Of a DNA stretch of 64,000 nucleotides, positions 3,809-28,539 are shown in pieces. The stretch is taken from NCBI GenBank assembly GCA_026874595.1, contig CM049309.1, positions 35,001-99,000 on the forward strand. The letters are read 5' to 3'. The notes below the pieces were generated by a model. That model was not told the DNA's origin. It was given only the letters and a program-made list of their open reading frames with translations, and did no database searches. Position numbers and translations under genes: made by a program. The stretch is from Sipunculus nudus. Its lineage: Eukaryota > Annelida > Sipuncula > Golfingiida > Sipunculidae. How positions within the stretch are numbered: position 1 is the first letter of the stretch; each line of letters starts with the position of its first letter.

Positions 3809-3868
3809 CTTCTTGGCACGGCTCCAATTGCGTTTCCTCCTCTTGGACCGCCGCTTCCCCTTGGTCTG
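3809..3868 (-). CDS. Acidic mini-exon, EEETQL family, copy 1
   Basis: A 60-bp exon read from 3868 to 3809. The acceptor is TTTTACAG followed directly by CAG, a NAGNAG tandem acceptor. The donor is AAG|GTAGGG. In the phase-1 frame (2 + 57 + 1 bases) it reads DQGEAAVQEEETQLEPCQE. The other two frames are also open in this copy, so phase is inferred from the neighbouring exon families. Confidence 0.55.
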
Positions 3869-4460
3869 CTGTAAAAGAATGATATGTACAGACAAGTTTT
3901 GCTACTGTAGAGATAGCGGCTGCACAGAAGAGTTGCTTCCCATTTAGGCTGATGGGAAAAGGCAAACGCAGTTGTGGAGAGATGGTCTCTGACCACTGTG
4001 GGTGAAATGATATACAGCCATTTTGTACACAGTGCCAAAGGGAATTGGCCAAGGAATGCTATCGAGTATCAGGTGTTTCAGCACCACTTTGATCAAATTG
4101 TAACGTTTTTAATATATAAAGACGTCCAGGATAAAGCTGTGAAGCACATTGTATGACAATCTGGGCAAATATTAATGAAATGTTCACTGCATAATTGCAT
4201 TAAATTCTAATTTTCTTATATGTATGTAAAGAAACAGTCACATAACACAACGAATTAAGTTAATACGAAAATTCAGATAAGTCACAGAGAGTGCGTATGT
4301 TATTTGTGGAGTAACATAGATTCTTTGGTTATCCCATCCGTTGCATTAAATAGTTTTACACGACCCTGTTCTTTCATATTTTTAAAGTTTTGCATGGAAA
4401 CTAAGAATAAATGACTAATCTGGGAAATATGGGCATGAAAATATGCAACAACATCACTAC

Positions 4461-4520
4461 CTTCTTTGCACGGCTCCAATTGCGTTTCCTCCTCTTGCAC
4501 CGTCGCTTCGCATAGGCCTG
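4461..4520 (-). CDS. Acidic mini-exon, EEETQL family, copy 2 (A form)
   Basis: The acceptor is TTTTACAG|CAG and the donor AAG|GTAGTG. The phase-1 frame gives GLCEATVQEEETQLEPCKE. Confidence 0.55.
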
Positions 4521-5112
4521 CTGTAAAAGAAGAACATGTACTGACAAGGTTTTCGACTGTATAGATAGCTGTTGCACAGAAGAGTTGCTTCCCATTGAGG
4601 CTGATGGGAAAAAGCAAACGCAGTTGTGGAGAGATGGTCTCTGACCACTGTTTGTGAAATGATTAACAGACATTTTGTACACAGTGCCAAAGGGAATAGG
4701 CCAAGGAATGCTATCGAGAATAAGGTGTGTCAGCACAACTTTTATAAAATTATAACGTTTTTAATTTATAAAGGCGTCCAGGATAAACATGTGAAGCACA
4801 TTGTATGACAATCTGGGCAAATATTAATGAAATGTTCACTGTACAATTGCATTAAATTCTAATTTTCTTATATGTATGTGAAGAAACAGTCACATTACAC
4901 AACAAGTTAATTTAATACGAAAAATACAGATAAGTCACAGAGAGTCTGAGTGTTAGTTATGGAGTAACAAGGATTCTTTGGTTATCCCATTCATTGCATT
5001 AAATAGTTTTACACGACCCTGTTCTTTCATTTTTTAAAGTTTGGCATGGAAACTAAGAATAAATGACTAATCGGGGAAATATGGGCATGAAAATATGCAA
5101 CAACATCACTAC

Positions 5113-5172
5113 CTTCTTTGCTCGGGTCCAATTGCGTTTCCTCCTCTTGCACCGCCGCTTCGCCTAGGCCTG
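5113..5172 (-). CDS. Acidic mini-exon, EEETQL family, copy 3 (B form)
   Basis: The splice borders are the same as in copy 2. The phase-1 frame gives GLGEAAVQEEETQLDPSKE. The phase-0 frame (basic, QA-stop-AKRRCK) is interrupted by TAG, which argues against that frame being the coding one. Confidence 0.55.
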
Positions 5173-5764
5173 CTGTAAAAGAAGGACACGTACAGACAAG
5201 GTTTTCGACTGTACAGATAGCTGTTGCACAGAAGAGTTGCTTCCCATTGAGGCTGATGGGAAAAAGCAAACGCAGTTGTGGAGAGATGGTCTCTGACCAC
5301 TGTGGGTGAAATGATATACAGCCATTTTGTACATAGAGCCAAAGGGAAATGGCCAAGGAATGCTATCGAGTATAAGGTGTTTCAGCACCACTTTGATCAA
5401 ATTGTAACGTTTTTAATATATAAAGACGTCCAGGATAAACCTGTGAAGCACATTGTATGACAATCTGGGCAAATATTAATGAAATGTTCACTGTATAATT
5501 GCATTAAATTCTAATTTTCTTATATGTATGTAAAGAAACAGTCACATAACACAACGAATTAAGTTAATACGAAAATTCAGATAAGTCACAGAGAGTGCGT
5601 ATGTTATTTGTGGAGTAACATAGATTCTTTGGTTATCCCATCCGTTGCATTAAATAGTTTTACACGACCCTGTTCTTTCATATTTTTAAAGTTTTGCATG
5701 GAAACTAAGAATAAATGACTAATCTGGGAAATATGGGCATGAAAATATGCAACAACATCACTAC

Positions 5765-5824
5765 CTTCTTTGCAAGGCTCCAATTGCGTTTCCTCCTCTT
5801 GCACCGTCGCTTCGCATAGGCCTG
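5765..5824 (-). CDS. Acidic mini-exon, EEETQL family, copy 4 (A form)
   Basis: Read as GLCEATVQEEETQLEPCKE. It differs from copy 2 by a synonymous CCG/CCT change in the phase-1 frame; the same base would change Arg to Leu in the basic frame. Confidence 0.55.
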
Positions 5825-6416
5825 CTGTAAAAGAAGAACATGTACTGACAAGGTTTTCGACTGTATAGATAGCTGTTGCACAGAAGAGTTGCTTCCCATT
5901 GAGGCTGATGGGAAAAAGCAAACGCAGTTGTGGAGAGATGGTCTCTGACCACTGTTTGTGAAATGATTAACAGCCATTTTGTACACAGTGCCAAAGGGAA
6001 TAGGCCAAGGAATGCTACCGAGTATAAGGTGTGTCAGCACAACTTTTATAAAATTGTAACGTTTTTAATTTATAAAGGCGTCCAGGATAAACATGTGAAG
6101 CACATTGTATGACAAACTGGGCAAATATTAATGAAATGTTCACTGTACAATTGCATTAAATTCTAATTTTCTTATATGTATGTGAAGAAGCAGTCACATT
6201 ACACAACAAGTTAATTTAATACGAAAAATACAGATAAGTCACAGAGAGTCTGAGTGTTAGTTATGGAGTAACAAGGATTCTTTGGTTCTCCCATTCATTG
6301 CATTAAATAGTTTTACACGACCCTGTTCTTTCATTTTTTAAAGTTTGGCATGGAAACTAAGAATAAATGATTAATCGGGGAAATATGGGCATGAAAATAT
6401 GCAACAACATCACTAC

Positions 6417-6476
6417 CTTCTTTGCTCGGGTCCAATTGCGTTTCCTCCTCTTGCACCGCCGCTTCGCCTAGGCCTG
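6417..6476 (-). CDS. Acidic mini-exon, EEETQL family, copy 5 (B form)
   Basis: Same product as copy 3 (GLGEAAVQEEETQLDPSKE), with TAG in the phase-0 frame and the NAGNAG acceptor retained. Confidence 0.55.
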
Positions 6477-7068
6477 CTGTAAAAGAAGGACACGTACAGA
6501 CAAGGTTTTCGACTGTATAGATAGCTGTTGCACAGAAGAGTTGCTTCCCATTGAGGCTGATGGGAAAAAGCAAACGCAGTTGTGGAGAGATGGTCTCTGA
6601 CCACTGTGGGTGAAATGATATACAGCCATTTTGTACACAGAGCCAAAGGGAATAGGCCAAGAAATGCTATCGAGTATCAGGTGTTTCAGCACCACTTTTA
6701 TCAAATTGTAACGTTTTTAATATATAAAGACGTCCAGGATAAACCTGTGAAGCACATTGTATGACAATCTGGGCAAATATTAATGAAATGTTCACTGTAT
6801 AATTGCATTAAATTCTAATTTTCTTATATGTATGTAAAGAAACAGTCACATAACACAACGAATTAAGTTAATACGAAAATTCAGATAAGTCACAGAGAGT
6901 GCGTATGTTATTTGTGGAGTAACATAGATTCTTTGGTTATCCCATCCGTTGCATTAAATAGTTTTACACGACCCTGTTCTTTCATATTTTTAAAGTTTTG
7001 CATGGAAACTAAGAATAAATGACTAATCTGGGAAATATGGGCATGAAAATATGCAACAACATCACTAC

Positions 7069-7128
7069 CTTCTTTGCACGGCTCCAATTGCGTTTCCTCC
7101 TCTTGCACCGTCGCTTCGCATAGGCCTG
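7069..7128 (-). CDS. Acidic mini-exon, EEETQL family, copy 6 (A form)
   Basis: Same product as copies 2 and 4, with intact splice borders. Confidence 0.55.
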
Positions 7129-7719
7129 CTGTAAAAGAAGAACATGTACTGACAAGGATTTCGACTGTGTAGATAGCTGTTGCACAGAAGAGTTGCTTCC
7201 CATTGAGGCTGATGGGAAAAGCAAACGCAGTTGTGGAGAGATGGTCTCTGACCACTGTTTGTGAAATGATTAACAGCCATTTTGTACACAGTGCCAAAGG
7301 GAATAGGCCAAGGAATGCTACCGAGTATAAGGTGTGTCAGCACAACTTTTATAAAATTGTAACGTTTTTAATTTATAAAGGCGTCCAGGATAAACATGTG
7401 AAGCACATTGTATGACAAACTGGGCAAATATTAATGAAATGTTCACTGTACAATTGCATTAAATTCTAATTTTCTTATATGTATGTGAAGAAGCAGTCAC
7501 ATTACACAACAAGTTAATTTAATACGAATAATACAGATAAGTCACAGAGAGTCTGAGTGTTAGTTATGGAGTAACAAGGATTCTTTGGTTATCCCATTCA
7601 TTGCATTAAATAGTTTTACACGATCCTGTTCTTTCATTTTTTAAAGTTTGGCATGGAAACTAAGAATAAATGATTAATCGGGGAAATATGGGCATGAAAA
7701 TATGCAACAACATCACTAC

Positions 7720-7779
7720 CTTCTTTGCTCGGGTCCAATTGCGTTTCCTTCTCTTGCACCGCCGCTTCGCCTAGGCCTG
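7720..7779 (-). CDS. Acidic mini-exon, EEETQL family, copy 7 (B form)
   Basis: Reads GLGEAAVQEKETQLDPSKE. One Glu-to-Lys change separates it from copies 3 and 5. Borders are intact. Confidence 0.55.
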
Positions 7780-8190
7780 CTGTAAAAGAAGGACACGTAC
7801 AGACAAGGTTTTCGACTGTATAGATAGCTGTTGCACAGAAGAGTTGCTTCCGATTGAGGCTGATGGGAAAAAGCAAACGCAGTTGTGGAGAGATGGTCTC
7901 TGACCACTGTGGGTGAAATGATATACAGCCATTTTGTACACAGAGCCAAAGGGAATAGGCCAAGGAATGCTATCGAGTATAAGGTGTGTCAGCACAACTT
8001 TTATCAAATTGTAACGTTTTTAATATATAAAGACGTCCAGGATAAACCTGTGAAGCACATTGTATGACAATCTGAGCAAATATTAATGAAATGTTCACTG
8101 TATAATAGCATTAAATTCTAATTTTCTCATATGTATGTGAAGAAACAGTCACATTACACAACAAGTTAAGTTATGCAACAGCATCAGTAC

Positions 8191-8250
8191 CTTTATTGCA
8201 AGGCTCCAATTGCGTTTCCTCCTTTTGGACCACCGCTTCCCCTTGGCCTG
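8191..8250 (-). CDS. Acidic mini-exon, EEETQL family, copy 8 (first in gene order)
   Basis: The distal acceptor AG has mutated to AA (TTTTACAACAG), but the second AG of the former NAGNAG pair remains, giving a likely exon of 8191-8247. The donor is AAG|GTACTG. The phase-1 frame is GQGEAVVQKEETQLEPCNK. It is the most diverged copy and lies at the edge of the array, as expected for an end unit that escapes homogenisation. Confidence 0.45.
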
Positions 8251-8275
8251 TTGTAAAAGAAGGATATGTACAGAC

Positions 8276-8398
8276 AAGGCATATAAGATTTTATATATAT
8301 AAGATACATACGGTTTTGTATCAAATTTAGTATTATGCTGTGGGGGGGGGGGGTGGTAATTCGGAGCCAGATAACTCAGAGAATATGTCACAGTATGC

Positions 8399-8399
<1 letters not shown>
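8276..8399. other. Short unique spacer with a G run
   Basis: Contains a G12 run near 8342-8353. No gene is seen. Confidence 0.6.

Positions 8400-8463
<64 letters not shown>
8400..8463. repeat. (TA)n microsatellite
   Basis: An uninterrupted run of about 31 TA units. Confidence 0.95.
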
Positions 8464-8466
<3 letters not shown>

Positions 8467-8774
8467 TCACTGTTGGTGTCTGTGCAAATAACACCCAGTA
8501 GTGTGACAATGCCAAGATGAGGTTACAATTCATCACGTCTCAACAAAATACAAACGCAGATTCGACAATTGAAACTTTTCCAGGACGATAGACCACCGCG
8601 TAAAAGGAGGGAGTTAAAAGAATATAAACAGCCTTTGGTGTTCCAATATATGCTGCTCTAACCCTGACACCGGATTTCACGAAACATTAAAACTGACGTG
8701 TCACTCATTTATACACATGTGACAACATTTTGTCTCTAGACTGGCTTATCTTGTACATTGCGAAGAAAAACAAC

Positions 8775-8859
8775 CTACGCAAACTAGAGTCCTGCTCCCT
8801 CTCGTCAATAGGCACTTTTAGTATGAAGATCTGGCCCGAGGGTAATCTGATGGTTGTGC
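8775..8859 (-). CDS. Candidate exon, unknown function
   Basis: Read from 8859, after a good acceptor (GTTTTGTTGCAG). With two leading bases, as in the mini-exons, it gives TTIRLPSGQIFILKVPID followed by EREQDSSLR. It is non-repetitive and protein-like. The 3' border is uncertain. Ending at GTAG|GTTGTT (8775) leaves two trailing bases and breaks the phase. Ending at TCTA|GTTTGC (8785) leaves one trailing base and keeps the phase, but that donor is weak. I do not recognise the domain. It could also be a relic exon. Confidence 0.35.
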
Positions 8860-8912
8860 CTGCAACAAAACACAGTCTAATTAAAAAAAGTTTACATGGG
8901 TTACATGGGTTC

Positions 8913-8945
8913 ACACGGGACACATGGGTCACGTCGCTCAGCTGA
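8913..8945 (+). mobile_element. Orphan left end of a CTCAGCTGA-type element
   Basis: ACACGGGACACATGGGTCAC followed by GTCGCTCAGCTGAA matches the left ends of the large elements at 38188 and 50939. No matching body or right end follows. Confidence 0.5.
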
Positions 8946-9353
8946 AGTTGGAAAAAAATTGGAACTTAAACGTCATCATGTAACTGATATATGAGAAGTA
9001 AAATATAGTTTTATTAATATTCTTTTTCATAAATATAAATATTGAAAATATGAAAAATGAGAGAACAACAAACCCAATCACTGAGGCAAGAAAATAATGA
9101 ACAAAGTTTTGTATTAATTTTTTTTAATAAGTATATTTTTAATATACAAATTTCACTAAACAGTTTCAGTCGTATATATTTGAATATTTAAGTTGATTAA
9201 AATATTTTAAATTGCATCAACATTTCTAGTTAATCTGGTCAGGCAACATCACATCATTTACGCAGATGTTCTGATGGTTTCTGAAATATAATTTTTTTTT
9301 TAAATGTGCTATAACAATACTTATCTGGGAAAAAATCTTGATTCACGATTGAA
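8946..9353. other. AT-rich spacer
   Basis: No gene is seen. It is A/T-rich sequence with poly-T and poly-A stretches. Confidence 0.6.
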
Positions 9354-9386
9354 ACAAGAGACCCATGGGTCTCGTGGCTCAGCTGA
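9354..9386 (+). mobile_element. Second orphan element left end with a 16-bp palindrome
   Basis: ACAAGAGACCCATGGGTCTC is followed by GTGGCTCAGCTGAA. GAGACCCATGGGTCTC is a perfect palindrome, so this end can form a hairpin. It is the same family as the orphan end about 440 bp to the left. Confidence 0.55.
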
Positions 9387-9618
9387 ATTTTTTGGAAATT
9401 TTTGTCAAATATAAATATACATGATTTTTATATATATATAAAATAACATTTTATTAAAATGTACCTATTTCGTTTGTTAAATATATTAGCATTTGAAAAG
9501 CTAAGAGGAAATAGCCCTGCTTCTGATAATTAAACATTAATTATATGTTTTATTAACTAATTCTGTGCACAGTTATGGTTTATATGAAAGATATAGAAGA
9601 GTCTGATGATCAAATATT
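9387..9618. other. AT-rich spacer
   Basis: Nothing recognisable apart from short TA runs. Confidence 0.6.
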
Positions 9619-10000
9619 TCAGTTAACATGCCTAACACTATGCAATGTCAATGATAGTTGTCTAAAAGCCCTGTTAACATGTCTAACAGTCTGCACCGTC
9701 ACTGATACTTGTCTAAAAGCACTGTTAACATGTCTTACAGTCTGCACGATCACTGAAGCTTGTCTAAAAGCCCACTTAACATGTCTAACAGTCTGCACGG
9801 TCACTGATACTTGTCTAAAAGCCCTGTTAACATGTCTAACAGTCTGCACGGTCACTGATACTTGTCTAAAAGCCCTGTTAACATGTCTTACAGTCTCCAC
9901 GGTCACTGATACTTGTCTAAAAGCCCAGTTGACATGTCTAACAGTCTGTACGGTTACTGATACTTGTCTAAAAGCCCTGTTAACATGCCTAACAGTCATT
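9619..10000. repeat. 51-bp minisatellite
   Basis: Seven to eight tandem copies of a unit containing CTGTTAACATGTCTAACAGT and TGCACGGTCACTGATACTTG. The internal TTAACATGTCTAACAG makes it partly palindromic. The period is a multiple of three, so both strands stay open for over 100 codons (17-residue periodic peptides). I read this as a consequence of the repeat and not as a gene. Confidence 0.9.
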
Positions 10001-10038
10001 CATACATACCGATATTCATTCATAAATACCTGTAAACA

Positions 10039-10040
<2 letters not shown>

Positions 10041-10109
<69 letters not shown>
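10041..10109. repeat. (TA)n microsatellite
   Basis: A TA run of more than 30 units abutting the minisatellite flank. Confidence 0.95.
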
Positions 10110-10111
<2 letters not shown>

Positions 10112-10574
10112 CAATGTCAACTGTATTCTAAGCTTAAGTTTGGGAGCATAATTCTATATGTTTAGCACCATAACCATAAGTTTAGGACCATACCATCGTA
10201 AGTTTAGGATCATAACACTGTTAGTTTAGCACCATATCAATGTAATTTTAGGATCCTAACATAAGTGTAAGACCATAACGCTAAGTTTAAGACCATAGCA
10301 CTTCAAGTTTAGGAACATAACGTAAATTTAGGACCATATCACTGTATGTTTAGGAACCTAACAATGTAAGGTTATGGACATAGTGTACGTCTACGACCAT
10401 AACACTGTACCTTTAGGACCATAACATGTTGAGTTGAGGACCTTAACACTGTCTGCAGTTGAAATTACAGTCACTTGTCAGTGTTAGGAGCATAACCCGT
10501 CGAGTGTACGTTTATGACCATAACATGTTGAGTTGAGGACCTTAACACTGTCTTAAGTTGAAATTAGAATCACT
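10110..10574. repeat. AGGACCATAAC short-repeat block
   Basis: About 15-20 degenerate copies of a 20-25-bp word (GTTTAGGACCATAACACTGT and variants). No gene is seen. Confidence 0.75.
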
Positions 10575-10765
10575 TGTGGTAAAGCACTGTTCACATGTCA
10601 AACAGTATGCACGATCCCTGATACTTGTCTAAAAGTCATGTCAACAGGTCTAACAGTCTGCACGGTCACTGATACTTCTCTAAAAGCCCAGTTAACATGT
10701 CTATCAGTCTGCACGGTCACTGATACTTGTCTGAAATCCCAATTAAGATGTCTAACAGTGTCCAT
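10575..10765. repeat. 51-bp minisatellite, second block
   Basis: Three to four further copies of the 9619-10000 unit, cut off from the main block by the TA run and the AGGACCATAAC block. Confidence 0.85.
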
Positions 10766-11355
10766 GGTTATGGACGCTGTTGTTAACGTTGACTTAAATA
10801 CAAAGATGAACCGAGAAAGGTTAGTAATGATGCACAGCCATTACGTCCACAATGGAAATAAGTGAAAGAGTTCGTTTTCATATTGATCACAATGTTTTGG
10901 GGCACACGAACTTTCCATGTTATTCGTTATAACGGATGAGAGAGTCCTAGGTAAACAATACTTATTGCTGCTACAAGGACACACGGTCCTGGAGAGATGC
11001 TCCCTCATCGCTGTGTTAGTAATGATGTACAGACATTATGTCTACAACGGAAATAAGGGAAAGAGTTCGTTTTTCATATTGACCACAATGTTTTTGGGCA
11101 CACAATCTTTCCATGTTATTCGTTATAACGGGCGACAGAGTCCTAGGTCAAAAACAAGTGTCGCTGCTAAAAGAACTGATAACAATTAACTTTAGAGAGA
11201 GATTAATGAGAGAGATATATATAGAGAGAGATAGAGAGAAAAAAGGGGAAATACATGGAGTAGACATAAAGACCGTGATGGAAAAGTACTATACTGACAT
11301 ATGACAAAAATCAATGATTAATCAACATTATTCCATTAAAATAAAAATTACTCAC

Positions 11356-11412
11356 TGGACATGTTTTTGTCTGTGTCGTCTGACGCCTCGCTTAACTGGC
11401 TGTCTTCTTCAC
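11356..11412 (-). CDS. Acidic mini-exon, EEDSQL family, copy a
   Basis: A 57-bp exon read from 11412. The acceptor is CATTCAG and the donor TCCA|GTGAGTAA. The phase-1 frame gives EEDSQLSEASDDTDKNMS. The other two frames stop within seven codons, so the acidic frame is the only one that can code. Confidence 0.62.
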
Positions 11413-12126
11413 CTGAATGAATAGATTTAAATCAGAAGGATTAATACATCGAAAAAGTGATCTTGTGCACAGATTGAACTCAGAACGGTACAATAAATTT
11501 TCTAAAATAAATTGAAATTGTTTTTATACCTTATATATTAGTCTCGCCAGCTTCACTGTGACTGGAAGCTGATGTTAACGTTGAATTAAACACAAGCATC
11601 ACGTTACTTGAGAGTGTAAGTTGGATAAGTGTTGCATTCAATGTTCTGAACCGGATTCAATCTAACGCATGGCTGCGCAAAGAACAGTTTAACAGAGAAA
11701 GGCTAGTGGTATAGCTTCACCTGCGGATAAAAAGAATATGTACAGACAAACACGGTCCTGGAGAGATGCTGTCTCATCGCTGTGTTAGTAATGATGTACA
11801 GCCATTATGTACACAAAGGAAATAGGGGTAAGAGTTCGTTTTTCATATCGACCACAATGTTCTGGTGCACACAATCTTTCCATGTTATCCGTTATAACGG
11901 ACGACAGGGTCCTAGGTAAAAAATACGTGTCGCTGCTAAAAGAACTGATAACAATTAACTGTAGAATTTTATGAGAGAGACAGGGAGAAAGAAAGAAAAA
12001 GAGAGAGAGAGAAAAGGCGAAATACATTTAATAGATATAAAGACCGTGATGGAAAAGTACTTAACGGACATATGCCAAAAATCAATGAATATTAAACATT
12101 ATTCCATTAAAATAAAAATTACTCAC

Positions 12127-12183
12127 TGGACATGACCATGTCTTTGTCGTCTGACGCCTCGCTTAACTGGCTGTCTTCTTCAC
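12127..12183 (-). CDS. Acidic mini-exon, EEDSQL family, copy b
   Basis: Same borders as copy a. Reads EEDSQLSEASDDKDMVMS in phase 1. Confidence 0.6.
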
Positions 12184-12922
12184 CTGAATGAATAGATTTA
12201 AATAAGAAGGATTAATAAATAGATTAAAATCAGAAGGATTAATACATCGCAAAAGTGATCTTGGGCCCAGATTGAACTCAGAACGGGAAGATAACCTTTC
12301 TAAAAGAAATTGAAATTGTTTTCACCTTATATGTTAGTCTCGCGAGCTTCACTGTGACTGGAAGCTGATGTTAACGTTGAATTAAACACAAGCATCACGT
12401 TACTTGAGAGTGTAAGTTGGATAAGGGTTGCATTCAATGTTGTGGACCGGATTCAATCTAACGCATGGCTGCGCAAAGAACAGTTTAACCGAGAAAGGCT
12501 AGTGGTATAGCTTCACTTGCGATTAAAACGAATATGTACAGACAAACACGGTCCTGGAGAGATGCTGTCTCATCGCTGTGTTAGTAATGATGTACAGCCA
12601 TTATGTACACAAAGGAAATAGGGGTAAGAGTTCGTTTTTCATATCGACCACAATGTTCTGGTGCACACAATCTTTCCATGTTATCCGTTGTAACGGACGA
12701 CAGGGTCCTAGGTCAAAAATACGTGTCGCTGCTAAAAGAACTGATAACAATTAACTGTAGAATTTTATGAGAGAGAGAGGGAGAAAGAAAGAAAGAGAGA
12801 GAGAGAGAGAAAAGGCGAAATACATTTAATAGATATAAAGACCGTGATGAAAAGTACTAAACCGACATATGACAAAAATCAATGAATAATAAACATTATT
12901 CCAATAAAATAAAAATACTCAC

Positions 12923-12982
12923 TGCATTCAATGTTTAGGTCTTTGTCGTCTGACGCCGCGCTTAACTGGCCGTCTTCTTCAC
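12923..12982 (-). CDS. Acidic mini-exon, EEDSQL family, copy c (60 bp)
   Basis: Reads EEDGQLSAASDDKDLNIEC, one codon longer near the donor (TGCA|GTGAGT). The length change is three bases, so the phase is kept. The acceptor is CATTTAG. Confidence 0.58.
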
Positions 12983-13686
12983 CTAAATGAACAGATTTAA
13001 AACAGAACAATTAATACATAGGAAAAGTGATCTTGTGCACAGATTGAACTCAGAACGGTAAGATAATTTTTCTAAAATATATTGAGATTTTTTTGTTCTC
13101 TTATATATTCGTCTCGCGAGCTTCACTGGAACTGGACGCTGTTGTTAACGTTGAATTAAACACAAGCATCACGTTACTTGACAGTGTAAGTTGGATAAGT
13201 GTTGCATTCAATGTTCTGAACCGGATTCAATCTAAAGCATGGCTACGCAGCAAACAGTTTAACAGAGAAAGGCTAGTGTTATGGCCTCAACTGCTGTAAA
13301 GAAAAATATGTACAGAAACAAACGGACCTGGAGAGATGCTCTCTCATCGCTGTGTTAGTAATGATGTACAGCCATTATATACATAAAGGAAATAGGTGTA
13401 AGAGTTCGTTTTCATATCGACCACAATGTTTTGGTGCACACAATCTTTCCATGTTATTCGTTATAACGGATGACAGAGTCCCAGGTAAAAAATACGTGTC
13501 GCTGCTAAAAGAACTGGTAACAATTAACTTTGGGATTTATGAGAGAGATGTATATATTCAAAGAGAGAGAGAAAAGAGGAAATATGTAGAGTGGACATAC
13601 AGACCGCCATGGAAAAGTACTATGGCGACATATGACAAAAATCAATGAATAATCAACTTTATTGCATTTAATTTAAAATTACTCAC

Positions 13687-13743
13687 TGGACATGTTTATG
13701 TCTTTGTCGTCGGACGCCTCGCTTAACTGGCTGTCTTCTTCAC
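13687..13743 (-). CDS. Acidic mini-exon, EEDSQL family, copy d
   Basis: Reads EEDSQLSEASDDKDINMS, with intact acceptor and GTGAGT donor. Confidence 0.6.
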
Positions 13744-14444
13744 CTGAATGAACAGAAAGATTAATACATCGTACAGTGGGCTTGTGCACAGATTGAACTC
13801 AGAACGGTAAGATGAATTTTCTAAAATAAATTGATAGTTGAGTTTTTTTCCTAATATATTCGTTTCGCGAGCTTCACTGAGACTGGACGCTGTTGGTAAC
13901 GTTGAATTAAACACAAGCATCACGTCACTTGAGAGTGTAAGTTGGATAAGTGTTGCATTCAATGTTCTGAACCGGATTCAATGTAACGCATGGCTGCGCA
14001 ACGAACAGTTTAACATGAAAGGCTAGTGTTATAGCTTCACCTGTGGTAAAAAAGAATATGTACAGACAAACACGGTCCTGAAGAGATGCTGTCTCACGGC
14101 TGTGTTATTAATGATGTACAGCCATAATGTATCAATGGAAATTGGGGAAAGAGTTTGCTTTCAGATCAATCACAATGTTTTGGGGCACACAATCTTTCCA
14201 TGTTATCCGTTGTAACGGATGACAGAGTCCTAGGTCAAAAGTACGTGTCGCTGCCATAAGAACGGGTAACAATTAACTTTAGAATTTATAAGATAGAGAG
14301 AGAAAGAAAGAAAGAGAGAGAGAGAAAAGAGAAATACATAAAATAGACATAAAGACAGTTATGGAAAGTACTTTATCGACATATGCCAAAAAGCAATGAA
14401 TAATCAACATTATTCCAATAAATAAAAATTACTTTAACACTCAC

Positions 14445-14470
14445 TGGAAATGTTTCTGTCTTTGGCGTTA
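14445..14470 (-). pseudogene. Truncated EEDSQL mini-exon, copy e
   Basis: Only the donor half remains (AACATTTCCA|GTGAGT preceded by CCAAAGACAG). The acceptor half is missing, and a GA-rich stretch and a full unit follow. It explains the long 935-bp interval between copies d and f. Confidence 0.6.
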
Positions 14471-14621
14471 AAATTCATGAGAGCGAGTGAAAAAAATGAG
14501 AGCGAGAAAAGCGGAAATTCATAGAATAGACATAAAGACCCTGATGGAAAAGTACTTAACCGACATATGACAAAAATCAATGAATAATCAGCATTATTCC
14601 ATTAAAGTAAAAATCACTCAC

Positions 14622-14678
14622 TGGACATGTTTCTGTCTTTGTCGTCTGACGCCTCGCTTAACTGGCTGTCTTCTTCAC
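14622..14678 (-). CDS. Acidic mini-exon, EEDSQL family, copy f
   Basis: Reads EEDSQLSEASDDKDRNMS in phase 1. The acceptor is CTTTCAG. Confidence 0.6.
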
Positions 14679-15368
14679 CTGAAAGAACAGATTGAAAACA
14701 GAACAGTCAATACATATGAAAAGTGATCTTGTGCACAGATTGAACTCCGAACGGTAAGATGATTTTTCTAAAACAAATTGAAATTGTTTTTTTTTTCTCA
14801 TATATATTCGTCTCGCGATCTTCACTGGGACTGGACGCTGTTGTTAACGTTGAATTAAACACGCGCATCACGTTACTTGACAGTGTACGTTGTTCTGAAC
14901 CGGATTCAATCTAAAGCATGGCTACGCAACAAACAGTTTAACAGAGAAAAGCTAGTGTTGTGGCTTCAACTATTGTAAAGAAGAATATGTACAGAAACAA
15001 ACGGTTCCGGAGAGATGCTCTCTCACAGCTGTGTTAGTAATGTTGTACAGCCATTATGTATCAATGGATAGAGGGGAAAGAGTTCGTTTTCATATCGACC
15101 ACAATGTTTGAGTGCACACAATCTTTCCATGTTATTCGTTATAACGGATGACAGAGTCCGGGGTCAAAAATACGTGTCCTTTCTACAAGAACTGATAACA
15201 ATTAACTTAAGAATTTATGATAGAGCGAGAGAAAGAAAGAGAGAGAGAGAAAGAAAGAAAGGGGAAATCCATAGAATGGACATAAAACCGTTAAGGCAAG
15301 TACTAGGGCGACATATGAAAAAATAAATGAATAATCAGCATTATTCCATTAAAGTGAAAATCACTCAC

Positions 15369-15425
15369 TGGACATGCTTCTGTCTTTGTCTTCTGACGCA
15401 GCGCTTAACTTGCTGTCTTCTTCAC
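15369..15425 (-). CDS. Acidic mini-exon, EEDSQL family, copy g
   Basis: Reads EEDSKLSAASEDKDRSMS. It has more changes than the others, but the frame and borders are intact. Confidence 0.58.
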
Positions 15426-15990
15426 CTGAATGAACAGATTTAAAACAGAAAGATTAATACATGGTACAGTGGGCTTGTGCACAGATTGAACTCAGAACGG
15501 TAAGATGAATTTTATCAAATAAATTGATAGTTGAGTTTTTTCCCCTAATATATTCGTCTCGCGAGCTTCATTGGGACTGGACGGTGTTGTTAACGTCGAA
15601 TTAAACACAAGCATCACGTTACTTGACAGTGTAAGTTGGATAAGTGTTGCATTCAATGTTCTGAACCGGATTCAATCTATATAACGTATGGCTGCGCAAC
15701 AAACAGTTTAACAGAGAAAGGCTAGTGTAATGGCGTCAACTATTGTAAAGAAGAATATGTACAGAAACAAACGGTCCTGGAGAGATGCTGTCTCACAGCT
15801 GTGTTAGTAATGATGTACAGGTATCATGCATCAATGGAAATAGGGGAAAGAGTTCGTTTTCATATCGACCACAATGTTTTGGTGCACAGAATCTGTCCAT
15901 GTTATTCGTTATAACGGTCCTAGGTAAAAAATACGTGTCGCTACTACAAGAACTAATAACAATTAACTTTAGAATTTTATGAAAGAAAGA

Positions 15991-16026
<36 letters not shown>

Positions 16027-16140
16027 AAAGGGGAAATATATTTAATAGACATAAAGACCGTCATGGAAAAGTACTATATCGACATATGACAAAAATCAAT
16101 GAATAATCAACATTATTCCATCAAAGTAAAAAGTACTCAC

Positions 16141-16197
16141 TGGACATGTTTCTGTCTTTGTCTTCTGACGCCTCGCTTAACTGGCTGTCTTCTTCAC
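16141..16197 (-). CDS. Acidic mini-exon, EEDSQL family, copy h with damaged acceptor
   Basis: Reads EEDSQLSEASEDKDRNMS with an intact GTGAGT donor. The acceptor AG is AC (CATTCACGTG where the others have CATTCAGGTG), so normal splicing to this border should fail. The next AG is six bases inside (GTGAAG|AAGACAG) and would keep the frame, but it has a poor tract. It may be skipped. Confidence 0.4.
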
Positions 16198-16473
16198 GTG
16201 AATGAACAGATTTAAAACAGAAATATTAATACACCGGAAAAGTGATCTTGTGCACAGATTGAACTCAGAACGGTAAGATGATTTTTCAGAAATAAACAGA
16301 CGGCCTGAGAAACCGTAGGGCAAAAGGCATAAATCATTCATTGTATCGGAATCATGACCGAAACACAACTGATAATAGAATATAAGACTGCTGTTAAATG
16401 TTATAAGATTATTGCTGTAAATGAATAATTACACACTAGATAAGATTATTTCATTAAAGAAATTATTACACAC

Positions 16474-16518
16474 CCGAATCATCTTGGTCGTCGCTTGAAC
16501 CAGTATCAGTACCGTACT
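16474..16518 (-). CDS. Acidic mini-exon YGTDTGSSDDQDDS
   Basis: 45 bp, read from 16518. The acceptor is ATTACAG and the donor TCGG|GTGTGT. In phase 1 (2 + 42 + 1) it reads YGTDTGSSDDQDDS, Ser/Asp-rich like the neighbouring exons. It is single copy and lies just upstream, in gene order, of the EEDSQL array. Confidence 0.55.
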
Positions 16519-16857
16519 CTGTAATGCATATAATTATAAAAATGTTAAAGTTTTATTAATCGTATTCAATTTATCAAATTAAAAACCTAAGAGGAATTTA
16601 TAAATAAAATATTTGAGCTGTTATAATGAACAAACTCGTTATAAATGAGCTGTGGCCTGACCTGTGGCCTTACAGGTTGATTATCCGATAGAGTAATTTT
16701 TAAGTTCACCTAACTAGAGAGCTGACTTGGACATGAACAAAGTTTAACCGTGTTTATTTATGAGGTATTAAACAATTTGAGCTCAAGGATTAGGAATATG
16801 ACAAATTGAAGAATATCTCATTCTGTATGCTTTGCAAAATGATTAGGCAATACCTAC

Positions 16858-16899
16858 CTAACTGGACTACCTCAGGTGTCTCCAATTCTTCAGGTAATT
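16858..16899 (-). CDS. Acidic mini-exon LPEELETPEVVQL
   Basis: 42 bp, read from 16899. The acceptor is ATTTACAG and the donor TTAG|GTAGGTA. Only the phase-1 frame is open (LPEELETPEVVQL); both others stop. Confidence 0.57.
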
Positions 16900-17203
16900 C
16901 TGTAAATGTATTGAATAAATTTTCTTTACTCAAATACGTTAGTTTATGAAAAAAAATACGACGTGAAAAATATGACAATATTAAAACTTTAAATTTACTT
17001 TGGAGCTATCTTCCTGTGAAGCACAAATTAAAATACCACTATGTTATACATCAGAAAGCTATATATGACACGGGTGACTCATTGGCACGAGGCTCAAGCC
17101 ACGGAGTTAGTTCTATACACATGAACAGTACTAATAAAATGATTCGCTCACAAAAGTTGTTGGTTTAATATAAATCAACATGATGCTTGCATGAATAACG
17201 TAC

Positions 17204-17242
17204 CTGGCATTGTTTCTTGCCCGAACATCTCAAGCCTGAAAG
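17204..17242 (-). CDS. Mini-exon FRLEMFGQETMP
   Basis: 39 bp, read from 17242. The acceptor is CTGTTGCAG and the donor CCAG|GTACGTT, both good. Phase 1 again (2 + 36 + 1), giving FRLEMFGQETMP. Confidence 0.57.
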
Positions 17243-17447
17243 CTGCAACAGATGTAAAACACAATACATTTAAACAGTAATGTGAAAGCTGGATAGATAC
17301 TTGCTTGTATTGCGTTTGTTAATAGCTGGGTTGGAGATTTTTAAATAAAGTTTCAATTGTGATACCTTAAAAAGTTTTTTTCAGGATAACTTTTATAAAA
17401 TATAAAGGTATCTTTTTCGCAAAATTAAGTTCAATAAAGAATCTGAC

Positions 17448-17504
17448 CTTTCCAAAACTCTTCATCCAGCTCTGGTGAATCCTTTTCTGCCATTTCATGA
17501 GGTT
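17448..17504 (-). CDS. Acidic mini-exon PHEMAEKDSPELDEEFWK
   Basis: 57 bp, read from 17504. The acceptor is chosen at AAGGCCAG because it preserves phase 1 and gives PHEMAEKDSPELDEEFWK. An earlier AG (TTATTTAAG, 6 bp upstream) would also keep this frame. The donor is AAAG|GTCAGA. Confidence 0.5.
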
Positions 17505-19237: not shown

Positions 19238-19375
19238 ACAAAAGCTATGTTGAACAACATAAGTTTAAGTTGATAGACTTAAGACTTCAACATAAGCTAT
19301 GTTGATCAACTTAAGCTTAAGCTGATCAACTTAAGGCCTAATATTTATCAGTTCTTGTTTCAGACTTAAGAAAAT
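19238..19375. repeat. AAGCTTAAG-type satellite segment inside the 168-bp array
   Basis: Repeats words such as AACTTAAGCTTAAGCTGATC and CAACATAAGCTATGTTGA. It is rich in CTTAAG, AAGCTT and TGATCA palindromes and interrupts the array once here. Confidence 0.75.
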
Positions 19376-22300
19376 TATCGAAACTACTGATATTTTCAAA
19401 ATAGCCGAAAAACTTATCGGGAACAACCGACAATGTTCAAATACTGAGAAAATCCCTTAATTATTTATTCCCTGGAGAAGGACCAAAAGTACTATAATTT
19501 TTCAGCATTTCCACTTATATATTTAGCGGTTCACATTTCAGACTAAAATAACTTATCGTCACTACCGACATTTTCAAAATAGCCGGATGACTTATCGGCA
19601 TAAGCGACAATGTTCAAATACTGAGAAAATCCCTTATTGCCTGCACTAGGACCAAAAGTACTTTAATTTTTAGCATTTCAATATGTGTATTTAATGGATC
19701 ACATTTCAGACTAAAATAACTTATCGACACTACAGACATTTTCCAAATAGCCCGATGACTTATCGGCAAAAGCGACAATGTTCAAATACTGAGAAAATCC
19801 CTTATTGCCAGGAGTAGGACCAAAAGTACTATAATTTTTCAGCATTTCCACTTATATATTTAACGGTTCACAATTCAGACTAAATTAACTTATCGACACT
19901 ACCGACATTTTCAAAATAGCTGAATAACTTATCGGCATAAGCGACAATGTTCAAATACTGAGAAAATCCCTTATTGCCTGGAGTAGGACTAAAAGTACTA
20001 AAATTTTTCATCATTTCCACATATATTTAACGGTTCACATTTCAGACTAAAATTACTTATCGACACTACCAACATTTTCAAAAATGCCCGATGACTTATC
20101 GGCATAAGCGAAAATGTTCAAATACTGAGAAAATCCCTTATTGCCTGGAGTAGGTCCGAAAGTACCATAAGTTTTCAGCATTTCCACTTATATGTTTAAC
20201 AGTTTACTATTGAGACTAAATTAAGTTATGGACACTACTGACATTTTCAAAAAATCTGAATAACTTATCGGCAACACCGACAATGTTCAAATACTGAGAA
20301 AATCCCTTATTGCCTGCACTAGGACCAAAAGTACTAAAATTTTTCAGCATCTCCCTATATATTTAACGGTTCATATTTCAGACTAAAATTACTTATCGAC
20401 ACTACCGACATTTTCAAAATAGCCCGATGACTTATCGGCAAAAGCAACAATGTTCCAATACTGATAAAATCCCTTATTGCCTTGAGCAGGACCAAAAGTA
20501 CTATCATTTTTCAGCATTTCCACTTATATGTTTAACGGTTTACTATTAAGGCTAAATTAACTTATCGACACTACCGACATTTTCAAAAAAGCCAAAAAAA
20601 TTATCTTCAACACCGACAATGTTCAAATACTGAGAAAATCCCTTATTGCTTGGAGTAGGACTAACAGTACTAAAATTTTTCATCATTTCCACATATATTT
20701 AACGGTTCACATTTCAGACTAAAATACTTATTGACACTACCGACATTTTCAAAAATGCCGGATGACTTATCGCCATAAGCGAAAATGTTCAAATACTGAG
20801 AAAATCCCTTATTGCCTGGAGTAGGACCAAAAGTACTATAAGTTTTCAGCATTTCCACTTATATGTTTAACGGTTTACTATTAAGACTAAATTAAGTTAT
20901 CGACACTACCGACATTTTCAAAAAATCCAAATAACTTATCGGCAACACCGACAATGTTCAAATAATGAGAAAATCCCTTATTGGCTGCACTAGGACTAAA
21001 AGTACTATATTTTTCAGCATTTCCACTTATATGTTTAACGGTTCACATTTCAGACTAAATTAACTTATCGACACTACCGACATTTTCAAAAAAGCCGGAT
21101 GACTTATCGGCATAAGTGACAATGTTCAAATACTGAGAAAATCCCTCATTGTCTGGAGCAGGACCAAAAGTACTACAATTTTTCAGCATTTCCACTTATA
21201 TATTTAACGGTTCACAATTCAGACTAAATTAACTTATCGACACTACCGACATTTTCAAAATAGCCGAAAAACTTATCTTCAACACCGACAATGTTCAAAT
21301 ACTGAGAAAATCCCTTATTGCTTGGAGTAGGACTAACAGTACTAAAATTTTTCATCATTTCCACATATATTTAACGGTTCACATTTCAGACTAAAATACT
21401 TATCGACACTACCGACATTTTCAAAAATGCCGGATGACTTATCGGCATAAGCAAAAATGTTCAAATACTGAGAAAATCCCTTATTGCCTGGAGTAGGACC
21501 AAAAGTACTATAAGTTTTCAGCATTTCCACTTATATGTTTAACGGTTTACTATTAAGACTAAATTAAGTTATCGACACTACTGACATTTTCAAAAAATCC
21601 GAATAACTTATCGGCATAAGCGACAATGTTCAAATACTGAGAAAATCCCTTATTGCCTGGAGTAGGACTAAAAGTACTAAAATTTTTCATCATTTCCACA
21701 TATATTTAACGGTTCACATTTCAGACTAAAATTACTTATCGACACTACCGACATTTTCAAAAATGCTGGATGACTTATCGGCATAAGCGAAAATGTTCAA
21801 ATACTGAGAAAATCCCTTATTGCCTGCACTAGGACCAAAAGTACTAAAATTTTTCACCATCTCCCTATATATTTAACAGTTCATATTTCAGACTAAAATT
21901 ACTTATCGACACTACCGACATTTTTAAAATAGCCAGATGACTTATCGGCATAAGCGACAATGTTCAAATACTGAGAAAATCCCTTATTGCCTGGACTAGA
22001 CCAAAAGTACTTTAATTTTTAGCATTTCAATATGTGTATTTAATGGATCACATTTCAGACTAAAATAACTTATCGACACTACCGACATTTTCCAAATAGC
22101 CCGATGACTTATCGGCAAAAGCGACAATGTTCAAATACTGAGAAAATCCCTTATTGCCTGGGGTAGGACAAAAAGTACTATAATTTTCCAGCATTTCCAC
22201 TTATATATTTAACAGTTCACAATTCAGACTAAATTAACTTATCGACACTACCGACATTTTCAAAATAGCCGAATAACTTATCGGCATAAGGGACAATGTT

Positions 22301-22384
22301 CAAATACTGAGAAAATCCCTTATTGCCTGGAGTAGGACCAAAAGTACTATCATTTTTCAGCATTTCCACCGATATATTGAACGG

Positions 22385-22590
22385 TTCACCTTAGTCAGAT
22401 TCAAATAGCCTAAGTTGATCAAATTAGGATTCAACATAAGCTTAAGTTTATCAACCTACCCTAAGTTGTTCAACTTAAGATCCAACATAAGCTTAAGTTG
22501 ACATTCAACATAATAAGTTGACAAACTGAAGATTTCAATATAGGCTTAAGTTTATCAACTTAACTAACCCTAACCCTAACCTAAAGTACT
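22385..22590. repeat. AAGCTTAAG satellite plus short CCCTAA segment, copy 1
   Basis: Starts after GTTCACCTTAGTCAGATTC, runs through CATAAGCTTAAGTTTATCAA words and ends in TAACTAACCCTAACCCTAAC before the 168-bp array resumes with CTAAAGTACTTTAAATTTTC. Confidence 0.85.
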
Positions 22591-24304
22591 TTAAATTTTC
22601 AGCATTTCTACTTATATATTTAATGGTTCACAATTCAGACTAAATTAACTAATCAACATTTCCGACATTTTCAAAATAGCCGGATGACTTATCGGCATAA
22701 GCGACAATGTTCAATTACTTAGAAAATCCCTAATTGCCTGGAGTAGGACCAAAAGTACTATAATTTTTCAGCATTTCCACCTATATATTTAACGGTCCAC
22801 AATTCAGAATAAAATAACTTATTGACACTACCGACATTTTCAAAAAAGCCGGATGACTTATCGGCATAAGTGACAATGTTCAAATACTGAGAAAATCCCT
22901 CATTGTCTGGAGCAGGACCAAAAGTACTATAATTTTTCAGCATTTCCACTTATATATTTAACGGTTCACAATTCAGACTAAATTAACTTATCGACACTAC
23001 CGACATTTTCAAAATAGCCGAAAAACTTATCGGCAACACCGACAATGTTCAAATACTGAGAAAATCCCTTATTCCCTGCACTAGGACCAAAAGTACTAAA
23101 ATTTTTCAATATCTACACATATATTTAACGGTTCATATTTCAGACTAAAATTACTTATCGACACTACCGACATTTTCAAAATAGCCCGATGACTTATCGG
23201 CAAAAGCGACAATGTTCCAATACTGATAAAATCCCTTATTGCCTGGAGCAGGACCAAAAGTACTATCATTTTTCAGCATTTCCACTTATATGTTTAACGG
23301 TTTACTATTAAGGCTAAATTAACTTATCGACACTACCGACATTTTCAAAAAAGCCGAAAAACTTATCTTCAACACCGACAATGTTCAAATACTGAGAAAA
23401 TCCCTTATTGCTTGGAGTAGGACTAACAGTACTAAAATTTTTCATCATTTCCACATATATTTAACGGTTCACATTTCAGACTAAAATACTTATTGACACT
23501 ACCGACATTTTCAAAAATGCCGGATGACTTATCGCCATAAGCGAAAATGTTCAAATACTGAGAAAATCCCTTATTGCCTGGAGTAGGACTAAAAGTACTA
23601 AAATTTTTCATCATTTCCACATATGTTTAACGGTTCACCATTAAGACTAAATTAAGTTATCGACACTACCGACATTTTCAAAAAATCCGAATAACTTATC
23701 GGCAACACCGACAATGTTCAAATACTGAGAAAATCCCTTATTCCCTGCACTAGGACCAAAAGTACTAAAATTTTTCAATATCTACACATATATTTAACGG
23801 TTCATATTTCAGACTAAAATTACTTATCGACACTACCGACATTTTCAAAATAGCCTGATGACTTATCGGCAAAAGCGACAATGTTCCAATACTGATAAAA
23901 TCCCTTATTGCCTGGAGCAGGACCAAAAGTACTATCATTTTTCAGCATTTTCAATTATATGTTTAGCGGTTTACTATTAAGGCTAAATTAACTTATCGAC
24001 ACTACCAACTTTTTCAAAAAATCCGAATAACTTATCGGCAACACCGACAATGTTCAAATACTGAGAAAATCCCTTATTGCCTGCACTAGGACCAAAAGTA
24101 CTAAAATTTTTCAGCATCTCCACATATATTTAACGGTTCATATTTCAGACTAAAATTACTTATCGACACTACTGACATTTTCAAAATAGCCCGATGACTT
24201 ATCCGCATAAGCGAAAATGTTCAAATACTGAGAAAATCCCTTATTGCCTGGAGTAGGACCAAAAGTACTATCATTTTTCAGCATTTCCACCGATATATTG
24301 AACG

Positions 24305-24510
24305 GTTCACCTTAGTCAGATTCAAATAGCCTAAGTTGATCAAATTAGGATTCAACATAAGCTTAAGTTTATCAACCCACCCTAAGTTGTTCAACTTAAG
24401 ATCCAACATAAGCTTAAGTTGACATTCAACATAATAAGTTGACAAACTGAAGATTTCAATATAAGCTTAAGTTTATCAACTTAACTAACCCTAACCCTAA
24501 CCTAAAGTAC
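24305..24510. repeat. AAGCTTAAG satellite plus short CCCTAA segment, copy 2
   Basis: Nearly identical to the segment about 1.92 kb to the left, including both junctions. Confidence 0.85.
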
Positions 24511-27345
24511 TTTAAATTTTCAGCATTTCTACTTATATCATTAATTGTTCACAATTCAGACTAAATTAACTAATCAACATTTCCGACATTTTCAAAATAG
24601 CCGGATGACTTATCGGCATAAGCGACAATGTTCAATTACTTAGAAAATCCCTAATTGCCTGGAGTAGGACCAAAAGTACTATAATTTTTCAGCATTTCCA
24701 CTTATATTTTTAACGGTCCACAATTCAGACTAAAATAACTTACTGACACTACCGACATTTTTAAAAAAGCCGGATGACTTACTGGCATAAGCGACAATGT
24801 TCAAATACTGAGAAATTCCCTCATTGTCTGGAGTAGGATCAAAAGTACTATAAGTTTTCAGCATTTCCACTTATATGTTTAAGGGTTCACCATTAAGACT
24901 AAATTAAGTTATCGACACTACCGACATTTTCAAAAAATCCGAATAACTTATCGGCAACACCGACAATGTTCAAATACTGAGAAAATCCCTTATTCCCTGC
25001 ACTAGGACCAAAAGTACTAAAATTTTTCAGCATCTCCACATATATTTAACGGTTCATATTTCAGACTAAAATTACTTATCGACACTACCGACATTTTCAA
25101 AATAGCCGGATGACTTATCGGCAAAAGCGACAATGTTCTAATACTGATAAAATCCCATATTGCCTTGAGCAGGACCAAAAATACTATCATTTTTCAGCAT
25201 TTCCACTTATATGTTTAACGGTTTACTATTAAGGCTAAATTAACTTATCGACACAACCGACATTTTCAAAAAAGCCGAAAAACTTATCGGCAAAAGCGAC
25301 AATGTTCAAATACTGATAAAATTCCTTATTGCCTGGAGCAGGACCAAAAGTACTATGTTTTTCAGCATTTCCACTTATTTGTTTAACGGTTTACTATTCA
25401 GGCTAAATTAACTTATCAACACTACCGACATTTTCAAAAAAGCCGAAAAACTTATCGTCAACACCAACAATGTTCAAATACTGAGAAAATCCCTTATTGC
25501 CTGCACTAGGACCAAAAGTACTAAAATTTTTCATCATTTCCACATATATTTAACTGTTCACATTTCAGACTAAAATTACTTTTCGACACTACCGACATTT
25601 TCAAAAATGCCGGATGACTTATTGGCATAAGCGAAAATGTTAAAATACTGAGAAAATCCCTTATTGCCTGGAGTAGGACCAAAAGTACTTTAATTTTTAG
25701 CATTTCAATATGTGTATTTAATGGATCACATTTCAGACTAAAATAACTTATCGACACTACCGACATTTTCCAAATAGCCCGATGACTTATCGGCAAAAGC
25801 GACAATGTTCAAATACTGAGAAAATCCCTTATTGCCTGGAGTAGGACCAAAAGTACTATAATTTTTCAGCATTTCCATTTATATATTTAACGGTTCACAA
25901 TTCAGACTAAATTAACTTATCGACACTACCGACATTTTCAAAATAGCCGAATAACTTATCAGCAACACCGACAATGTTCAAATACTGAGAAAATCCCTTA
26001 TTGCCTGCACTAGGACTAAAAGTACTATATTTTTCAGCATCTCCACTTATATGTTTAACGGTTCACATTTCAGACTAAATTAACTTATGGACACTACCGA
26101 CATTTTCAAAAAAGCCGGATGACTTATCGGCATAAGCGACAATGTTCAAATACTGAGAAAATCCCTCATTGTCTGGAGCAGGACCAAAAGTACTATCATT
26201 TTTCAGCATTTCCACTTATATGTTTAACGGTTTACTTTTAAGGCTAAATTAACTTATCGTTACTACCGATATTTTCAAAAAAGCCGAAAAACTTATCGGC
26301 AACACGGACAATGTTCAAATACTGAGAAAATCCCTTATTGCCTGGAGTAGGACCAAAAGTACTAAAATTTTTCATCATTTCCACATATATTTAACGGTTC
26401 ACATTTCAGACCAAAATTACTTATCGACACTACCGATATTTTCAAAAAAGCCGGATGACTTATCGGCAAAAGCGAAAATGTTCAAATACTGAGAAAATCC
26501 CTTATTGCCTGGAGTAGGACCAAAAGTACTATAATTTTTCAGCATTTCCACTTATATATTTAACGGTTCACATTTCAGACTAAAATAACTTATCGACACT
26601 ACCGACATTTTCAAAATAGCCGGATGACTTATCAGCAAAAGCGACAATGTTCAAATACTGATAAAATCCCTTATTGCCTGGAGCAGGACCAAAAGTACTG
26701 TAATTTTTCAGCATTTCCACTTATATATTTAACGGTTCACAATTCACACTAAAATTAACTTATCGGCACTACCGACATTTTCAAAATAGCCGAATAACTT
26801 ATCAGCATAAGCGACAATGTTCAAATACTGAGAAAATCCCTTTTTGCCTGGATTAGGACCAAAAGTACTATAATTTTTCAGCATTTCCACATATATTTAA
26901 CGGTTCATATTTCAGACTAAAATTACTTATCGACACTACCGACATTTTCAAAAAAGCCGGATGACTTATTATCAGCATAAGCGACAATGTTCAAATAGTG
27001 AGGAGATCCCTCATTGTCTGGAGTAGGACCAAAAGTACTATCATTTTTCAGCATTTCCACGTATATATTTAACGGTTCACATTTCAGACTAAAATTACTT
27101 ATCGACACTACCGACATTTTCAAAATAGCCGGATGACTTATCGGCAAAAGCGACAATATTCAAATACTGAGAAAATCCCTTATTGCCTGCACTAGGACTA
27201 AAAGTACTATATTTTTCAGCATTTCCACTTATATATTTAACGGTTCACAATTCACACTAAATTAAATTATGGACACTACCGACATTTTTAAAAAAGCCTG
27301 ATGACTTATCGGCATAGCGACAATGTTCAAATACTGAGAAACATC

Positions 27346-28430: not shown

Positions 28431-28539
28431 TAAGCGAAAATGTTCAAATACTGAGAAAATCCCTTATTGCCTGGAGTAGGACCAAAAGTACTAGTATTTT
28501 TCAGCATTTCCACCGATATATTGAACGGTTCATGCACCT

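Follow-up and report, generated by a model that had tools for sequence, protein, structure and literature searches.

What kind of gene places long rows of mini-exons, all in one reading phase, in front of an exon with zinc-finger-like and tyrosine recombinase (YR) features, and is it confined to a single place in the genome? This question is raised by a stretch of 64,000 nucleotides of Sipunculus nudus (contig CM049309.1, positions 35,001 to 99,000; G000:C4:35001-99000, hereafter "the window") that lies near the left-hand end of a contig 97.5 Mb long. On sequence evidence, we consider it probable that a Phage_integrase-like (YR) gene family with phase-locked, length-variable exon arrays has 11 near-identical copies at chromosome ends, and that the window carries one of them. 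The encoded protein would begin with an acidic tail (phase 1-1 mini-exon arrays), followed by two C2H2-like motifs, a tyrosine-recombinase-like domain, a basic linker (69-nt array, phase 0-0) and a C-terminal domain, and its most likely role is DNA binding, perhaps along with strand exchange. The central exons are the following (window coordinates throughout):

Y1, 2056-1167, minus strand: two C2H2-like motifs, N-terminal part of the YR and beginning of its catalytic domain; entered in phase 1, left in phase 0.
Y2, 592-332, minus strand: exon of the YR catalytic domain, phase 0-0.
Y3, basic K exon array and C-terminal exon, left of the window: partly in L009, and in L029 for the C8 copy.

When exon Y1 was used as a DNA query against the assembly (1.43 Gb, 153 contigs), 13 places were found. 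Ten are full-length copies listed at 100% identity, located on C17, C15, C13 (2), C8, C6, the right end of C4 (2), C12 and in the window itself; another is a partial near-identical copy at C3:25001, and the remaining 2 are paralogs with 68% identity. The 11 near-identical loci lie 25-324 kb from a contig end (the C12 copy at 241 kb), and all except C13:101539 read outward, that is, toward the contig end (10/11).

The recombinase-like core was analyzed as a spliced sequence in which Y1 and Y2 of the window were joined to Y3 of L003. It matches the Pfam family PF00589 (Phage_integrase) with E=5.8e-6 and 26.6 bits, just under the curated cut-off of 27.1. What we find of the zinc-finger recombinase proposed in the earlier note is a core that carries C2H2-like motifs and matches Phage_integrase weakly. 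The corresponding match is lower for the core of a paralog (19.0 bits, E=0.0013) and for exon Y2 alone (E=0.15), and matches to Pfam zinc-finger models also stay under cut-off. The two motifs read CPIC-x9-H-x4-H and CSVAGC-x9-H-x4-H, with 9 residues where classical C2H2 fingers have 12, and all 8 Cys/His residues are invariant in paralog L013. Tyrosine recombinases share the catalytic motif R..K..HxxR..H..Y; here, R271, K301, R377, H400, and Y412 are invariant in two paralogs, and S374 occupies the position of the box II His (assigned by eye). Among PHROGs, matches were weak, the best being to an integrase family (E=0.014, for one of two members). A single-sequence structure model of Y1 alone was not usable (mean predicted local distance difference test score, pLDDT, of 38), a PDB sequence search of solved structures gave no credible match (weak, unrelated-looking; E 0.77, 0.31, and 1.5), and the 116 and 55 pattern matches in viral and prokaryote collections (two peptide patterns each) contained 0 relatives by tblastn. 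Of the 4 loci with a readable Y3, 3 have it intact (L002, L003, and L006). The YR exons look constrained because none of the 9 between-locus variable sites falls into Y1/Y2, which make up 1151 of the 3213 sites compared (P=0.018).

Upstream of Y1, the acidic half of the gene is predicted to consist of the following exons:

E1, 17493 (ATG)-17448, minus strand: first coding exon, MAEKDSPELDEEFWK + 1 nt; GT donor; in phase with E2.
E2, 17242-17204, minus strand: 39-nt mini-exon, phase 1-1; AG/GT borders; 100% identical at the 7 loci read.
E3, 16899-16858, minus strand: 42-nt mini-exon, phase 1-1; single open frame.
E4, 16518-16474, minus strand: 45-nt mini-exon, phase 1-1.
A array, 16197..11356, minus strand: 7 acidic exons of 57 nt (A5, 60 nt), spaced ~0.75-0.94 kb.
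A1 16197-16141, A2 15425-15369, A3 14678-14622, A4 13743-13687, minus strand.
A5 12982-12923, A6 12183-12127, A7 11412-11356, minus strand.
B array, 8247..3809, minus strand: 8 acidic exons of 57 nt.
B1 8247-8191, B2 7776-7720, B3 7125-7069, B4 6473-6417, minus strand.
B5 5821-5765, B6 5169-5113, B7 4517-4461, B8 3865-3809, minus strand.

From E2 onward, all of these can be read with two leading bases and one trailing base (phase 1-1), and Y1 opens with the matching split codon, just as the earlier note had proposed for the minus strand. Its further claim of a single open frame holds for the 42-nt exon E3 and for the A exons (7/7 in the window), whose frame is bounded by in-frame stops on either side, but not for the B exons. 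The N-terminal region is acidic as predicted: The joined N part is stop-free at seven loci, with 305-457 residues and a net charge of -78 to -116, in a count that includes A1 despite its AC acceptor (see below) and in which the search pattern missed B1 at two of the seven loci. Tandem acceptors (ACAGCAG) are seen on most B exons (window 3809-7776) and would add one codon with the frame kept. We also considered an S/TQ cluster, given that SQ occurs in 5/7 A exons and TQ in 8/8 B exons of the window, but rejected it as not conserved because the B exons of paralog L012 contain none (0/5). Places matching E4 and A exons are present at two more ends, G000:C8 (~41-46 kb) and the right end of C9 (79.74 Mb); the Y1 searches found no Y1 at these two extra ends (C8 ~46 kb and C9 right end), where a masked stretch could hide one.

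The basic half lies left of the window and was read in other copies, where Y3 (147 nt) and exon C4 (54 nt) are followed by the K array of 69-nt exons (TTTTVYKPKRKRQRTPSPAAEKK and variants, each with a net charge of +6 to +9) and then by exon C6 (72 nt), exon C7 (78 nt), and a 267-nt terminal exon. All predicted exons after Y1 are phase 0-0. Since those before it, from E2, are phase 1-1, Y1 is by its predicted borders the adaptor between a mostly acidic first half and a basic second half, each locked in its own phase. In L009, most of the C-terminal exon occurs once more, in slightly altered form, directly downstream of the gene (~1815-2060).

The earlier note had portrayed the symmetric exons as expandable, and this fits what we see, as copy number differs among the 11 near-identical loci and the frame is unchanged at the seven that were read through. 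There are 6 B exons in C13a; 8 in the window, C13b, C8, and the distal C4 right-end copy (C4R); 10 in C17, C15, C12, and the proximal C4R copy; 12 in C3; and 14 in C6. Seven of these loci were read directly. At the remaining four (C12, C3, and both C4R loci), the counts were derived as full-length matches + 2, a rule that is true at the seven loci read directly. From B2 onward, the B units are 651/652 bp long and alternate in two exon types, and the B repeat is therefore a 1.3-kb dimer; in keeping with this, B counts are even at 11/11 loci. The A array has 7 exons in 6 of 7 loci and 6 in C8. Masked stretches reach the K region, and K exon counts are lower bounds except for C8 (6). Repeated exons of equal phase in differing copy number, the pattern known from NBPF and LPA, are thus present in B (6-14 at 11 loci) and in A (6 or 7 at seven loci). 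Exons may be added or removed within a copy by unequal exchange between near-identical units, pairwise in the case of B, with the symmetric exon phase keeping the frame through the change, and the charged tails would then be length-variable disordered segments.

How far are the mini-exons themselves real? Between units, A exons differ by 8.9%, compared to 9-10% in the nearest 50 bp of intron and 17-25% beyond 50 bp, and K exons by 5.1% vs 15-26% beyond 50 bp. Gaps within A exons amount to a single 3-nt step; outside of them, the length of 21 of 76 gap runs is divisible by three. The mini-exons keep their frame and, with the exception of the A1 acceptor, their splice sites. The exon pattern is more than chance, given the contrast between A exons and distant intron and the recurrence of lengths and phase in two paralogs. 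A spliced query of 183 nt (E2-E3-E4-A1) found only exon-by-exon places and no retrocopy among the 40 of 99 candidates scored.

Several observations weigh against our reading. B exons differ by 7.5% between units (B1 left out), which lies within the range of their flanks (3.7-9.9%), and the between-unit differences in A and B have no third-position bias (codon positions 1/2/3: A 10/30/23, B 48/12/30; A5 left out), so that amino-acid constraint on the mini-exons is unsupported. In the segment from E1 to B1, 1 of 36 between-locus variable sites is coding (coding sequence being 631 of 9463 sites; P=0.30). The B frame is not unique, with frame 1 open in 7/8 and frame 0 in 5/8 exons, and it remains open into the near flanks. 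At 7/7 loci read, the A1 acceptor is AC instead of AG. In the C8 copy, Y3 is frameshifted by an 11-bp duplication; exons C6 and C7 had their starts set at a phase-keeping AG; and all array counts rest on the correct assembly of near-identical repeats. Much of this would be expected if a real YR gene (Y1-Y3 and the C-side) merely carried arrays on its N-side that are mostly subtelomeric repeats with relic or optional exons, rarely spliced. The B exons, their open flanks and the lost A1 acceptor speak for such passengers, as does the divergence of B exons from those of paralog L012, which reaches 47% compared to 13-14% in the flanks (7/8 window units vs 3/5 L012 units). Nevertheless, all A and B exons found at seven loci are in frame and, except for A1, keep AG/GT, the A exons stand out from introns beyond 50 bp, the 5/5 B exons found in L012 keep length and phase, and paralog L013 carries other mini-exons in the same phase. 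On balance, we regard passenger arrays as rather unlikely, with a chance still large enough to be taken seriously, and prefer arrays that are part of the gene.

The question of how the gene came to lie at so many chromosome ends is informed by its flanks. Upstream, identity of 99.7-99.9% continues into 169-bp minisatellite DNA at five loci, and C6 is 99.5% identical over 200 bp. The upstream region of C8 joins two window stretches that lie ~5 kb apart, and at this same point the match of C13b falls to ~89%. Downstream, the 0.5-1.6 kb from exon C7 onward, which reach only partly past the last exon, are 99.9-100% identical at six loci. A mobile element, namely a Crypton-like YR transposon with insertion sites at chromosome ends, could account for a YR-like domain, for many near-identical copies and for several decayed relatives elsewhere. 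Such an element seems quite improbable to us, however, as identity continues past the gene upstream at five loci and through the downstream stretch at six, no element ends are seen within the short flanks compared, the C8 copy is a gene of ~25 kb with some 30 predicted exons, and relatives on C16 and C5 also look exon-split, their matches coming in two pieces that meet near residue 222. Within these short flanks, the shared sequence fits subtelomeric block exchange better than a discrete transposon, and because identity runs beyond the gene and orientation is shared by 10 of 11 copies, copies may have spread between chromosome ends by the exchange of such blocks.

The window contains further repeats outside the gene. 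Large arrays of a 168/169-bp minisatellite (~336-bp dimer), partly common to other chromosome ends, occupy 19358-30765 and 34875-35460. Interstitial telomere-like ACCCTA repeats extend over ~330 bp (36903-37233), and after them come arrays of a 35-bp satellite whose sequence includes CCCTA (37296-37850, 47215-47734, and 56489-59698). An 18/36-bp repeat array (31103-32709) has long open frames on both strands, perhaps by chance.

A protein search of the genome gave 34 matches, including the 11 loci, L013, and L012. Among the others, decayed relatives lie 0.85 Mb (C10), 3.2 Mb (C7), and 0.67 Mb (C9) from the end, and more distant or short ones of 29-50% identity are on C2, C3, C4, C5, C6, C10, and C16; one relative, L037, is broken by stops. 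L013 (C13:180 kb) shares 278 of 431 core residues, with a nonsynonymous divergence (dN) of 0.29; its synonymous divergence (dS) was beyond what NG86 can compute, which saturation would explain. Its mini-exons are of different types (75/69 nt and 39 nt, two copies matched of each), again in 2+1 phase. In L012 (C3:8.6 Mb), five B exons of 57 nt are phased as in the window. The C16 relative has an open exon of 266 aa in which these Cys/His motifs recur, and ~1 kb upstream on the same strand lies a stretch 48% identical to the gene's C-terminal domain that is perhaps the end of a tandem neighbour. With these relatives away from the 11 loci, the gene family looks older than its chromosome-end spread.

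Comparison of the paralogs uncovered an unusual relation between introns and exons. The Y1-Y2 intron was found only next to family YR exons (14/14 candidates). The stretches compared are the following:

Window, 593-1166: Y1-Y2 intron.
Paralog L012, 5703-8354: stretch compared.
Paralog L013, 4521-7487: stretch compared.

In 13 of 15 pairs among six paralogs, introns are 0.74-0.90 identical (gap columns left out; the L036 and L038 intron compared in part only) and fourfold sites only 0.14-0.41. The two shallow pairs, L013-L037 and L036-L038, have a normal relation: Between the window family and L012, intron identity is 0.90 and fourfold identity 0.41, compared to 0.91 and 0.86 for L013-L037. The contrast is smaller when gaps are counted, with 87, 73, 68, 77, and 77% for the intron against L012, L013, L037, L036, and L038, and 68, 62, 61, 60, and 60% for Y1. 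An abrupt change at the Y1-Y3 splice junctions was not significant (0.76 vs 0.83, p=0.06; none in two further pairs), exon and intron sides being alike nearby, and is marked for the B exons. Selection that breaks identical runs between exons (an escape from RNA silencing) was unsupported in the one pair tested, in which runs are, if anything, longer than shuffled.

We tentatively suggest, as a possibility that we hold at well below even chances, that in this family the divergence of coding exons exceeds that of introns several-fold, synonymous sites included. Introns might be homogenised repeatedly between ends while exon-replacing exchanges are rejected or selected out; alternatively, introns might be strongly constrained, or something might drive a recoding of the spliced RNA. 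Among intron-limited gene conversion, constrained introns, and exon-specific acceleration, we lean toward intron-limited conversion; the shallow pair L013-L037 leaves room for constrained introns because L037 is broken by stops. If true, and taken together with the acidic and basic exon arrays, the picture would be that of a recombinase-like family multiplying in subtelomeres, its introns and arrays subject to exchange and its coding core spared. The anomaly itself is an opportunity to tell gene conversion and selection apart. Along with the chromosome-end multiplication, the basic phase 0-0 array, the dimer register of B and the loss of the A1 acceptor, this anomaly goes beyond the earlier note. 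More generally, the 11 near-identical loci, with their 6 to 14 exon copies, form a natural series within one genome in which to study the growth of symmetric exon arrays and the effect of tail length on a DNA-binding protein. Sitting at several chromosome ends, the recombinase-like gene could itself be a passenger of subtelomeric exchange or a participant in it.

By title and the start of the abstract, no such gene, combining a C2H2-like YR with exon arrays at chromosome ends, was among the literature matches listed. That no described gene has this layout was nevertheless too strong a statement, since exon-bearing repeat arrays of changing copy number are known. In LPA, the exons of kringle IV type 2 are repeated and altered in number by unequal exchange, which creates length variants; LPA is a single locus encoding folded kringle domains, unlike the chromosome-end multicopy gene described here. 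NBPF/Olduvai units measure 1.6 kb and are organized in triplets, as opposed to 1.3-kb dimers here, and encode a different protein that is not known to have a YR or zinc-finger part. What NBPF/Olduvai (DUF1220) and our gene have in common is a multi-copy gene family of tandem exon-bearing units, which follow a higher-order register and change greatly in copy number (PMC9584774, PMC9313022, PMC11675761). Crypton YR transposons carry a tyrosine-recombinase domain in animal genomes and gave rise to DUF3504 host genes, including zinc-finger MYM genes; their catalytic tetrad is given as R-H-R-Y (PMC3212892). Of this tetrad, R, R, and Y are present in our gene, with Ser at the His position in two paralogs (by eye); it also differs in being a many-exon gene in shared subtelomeric blocks, and DUF3504 was absent from the Pfam matches of its spliced core up to E 5. 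In Schistosoma mansoni, subtelomeric gene families have expanded by segmental duplication with varied exon composition, but these are other genes (plexin-domain proteins and others), and the words "recombinase" and "micro-exon" do not occur in the main text of that article (PMC10900676).

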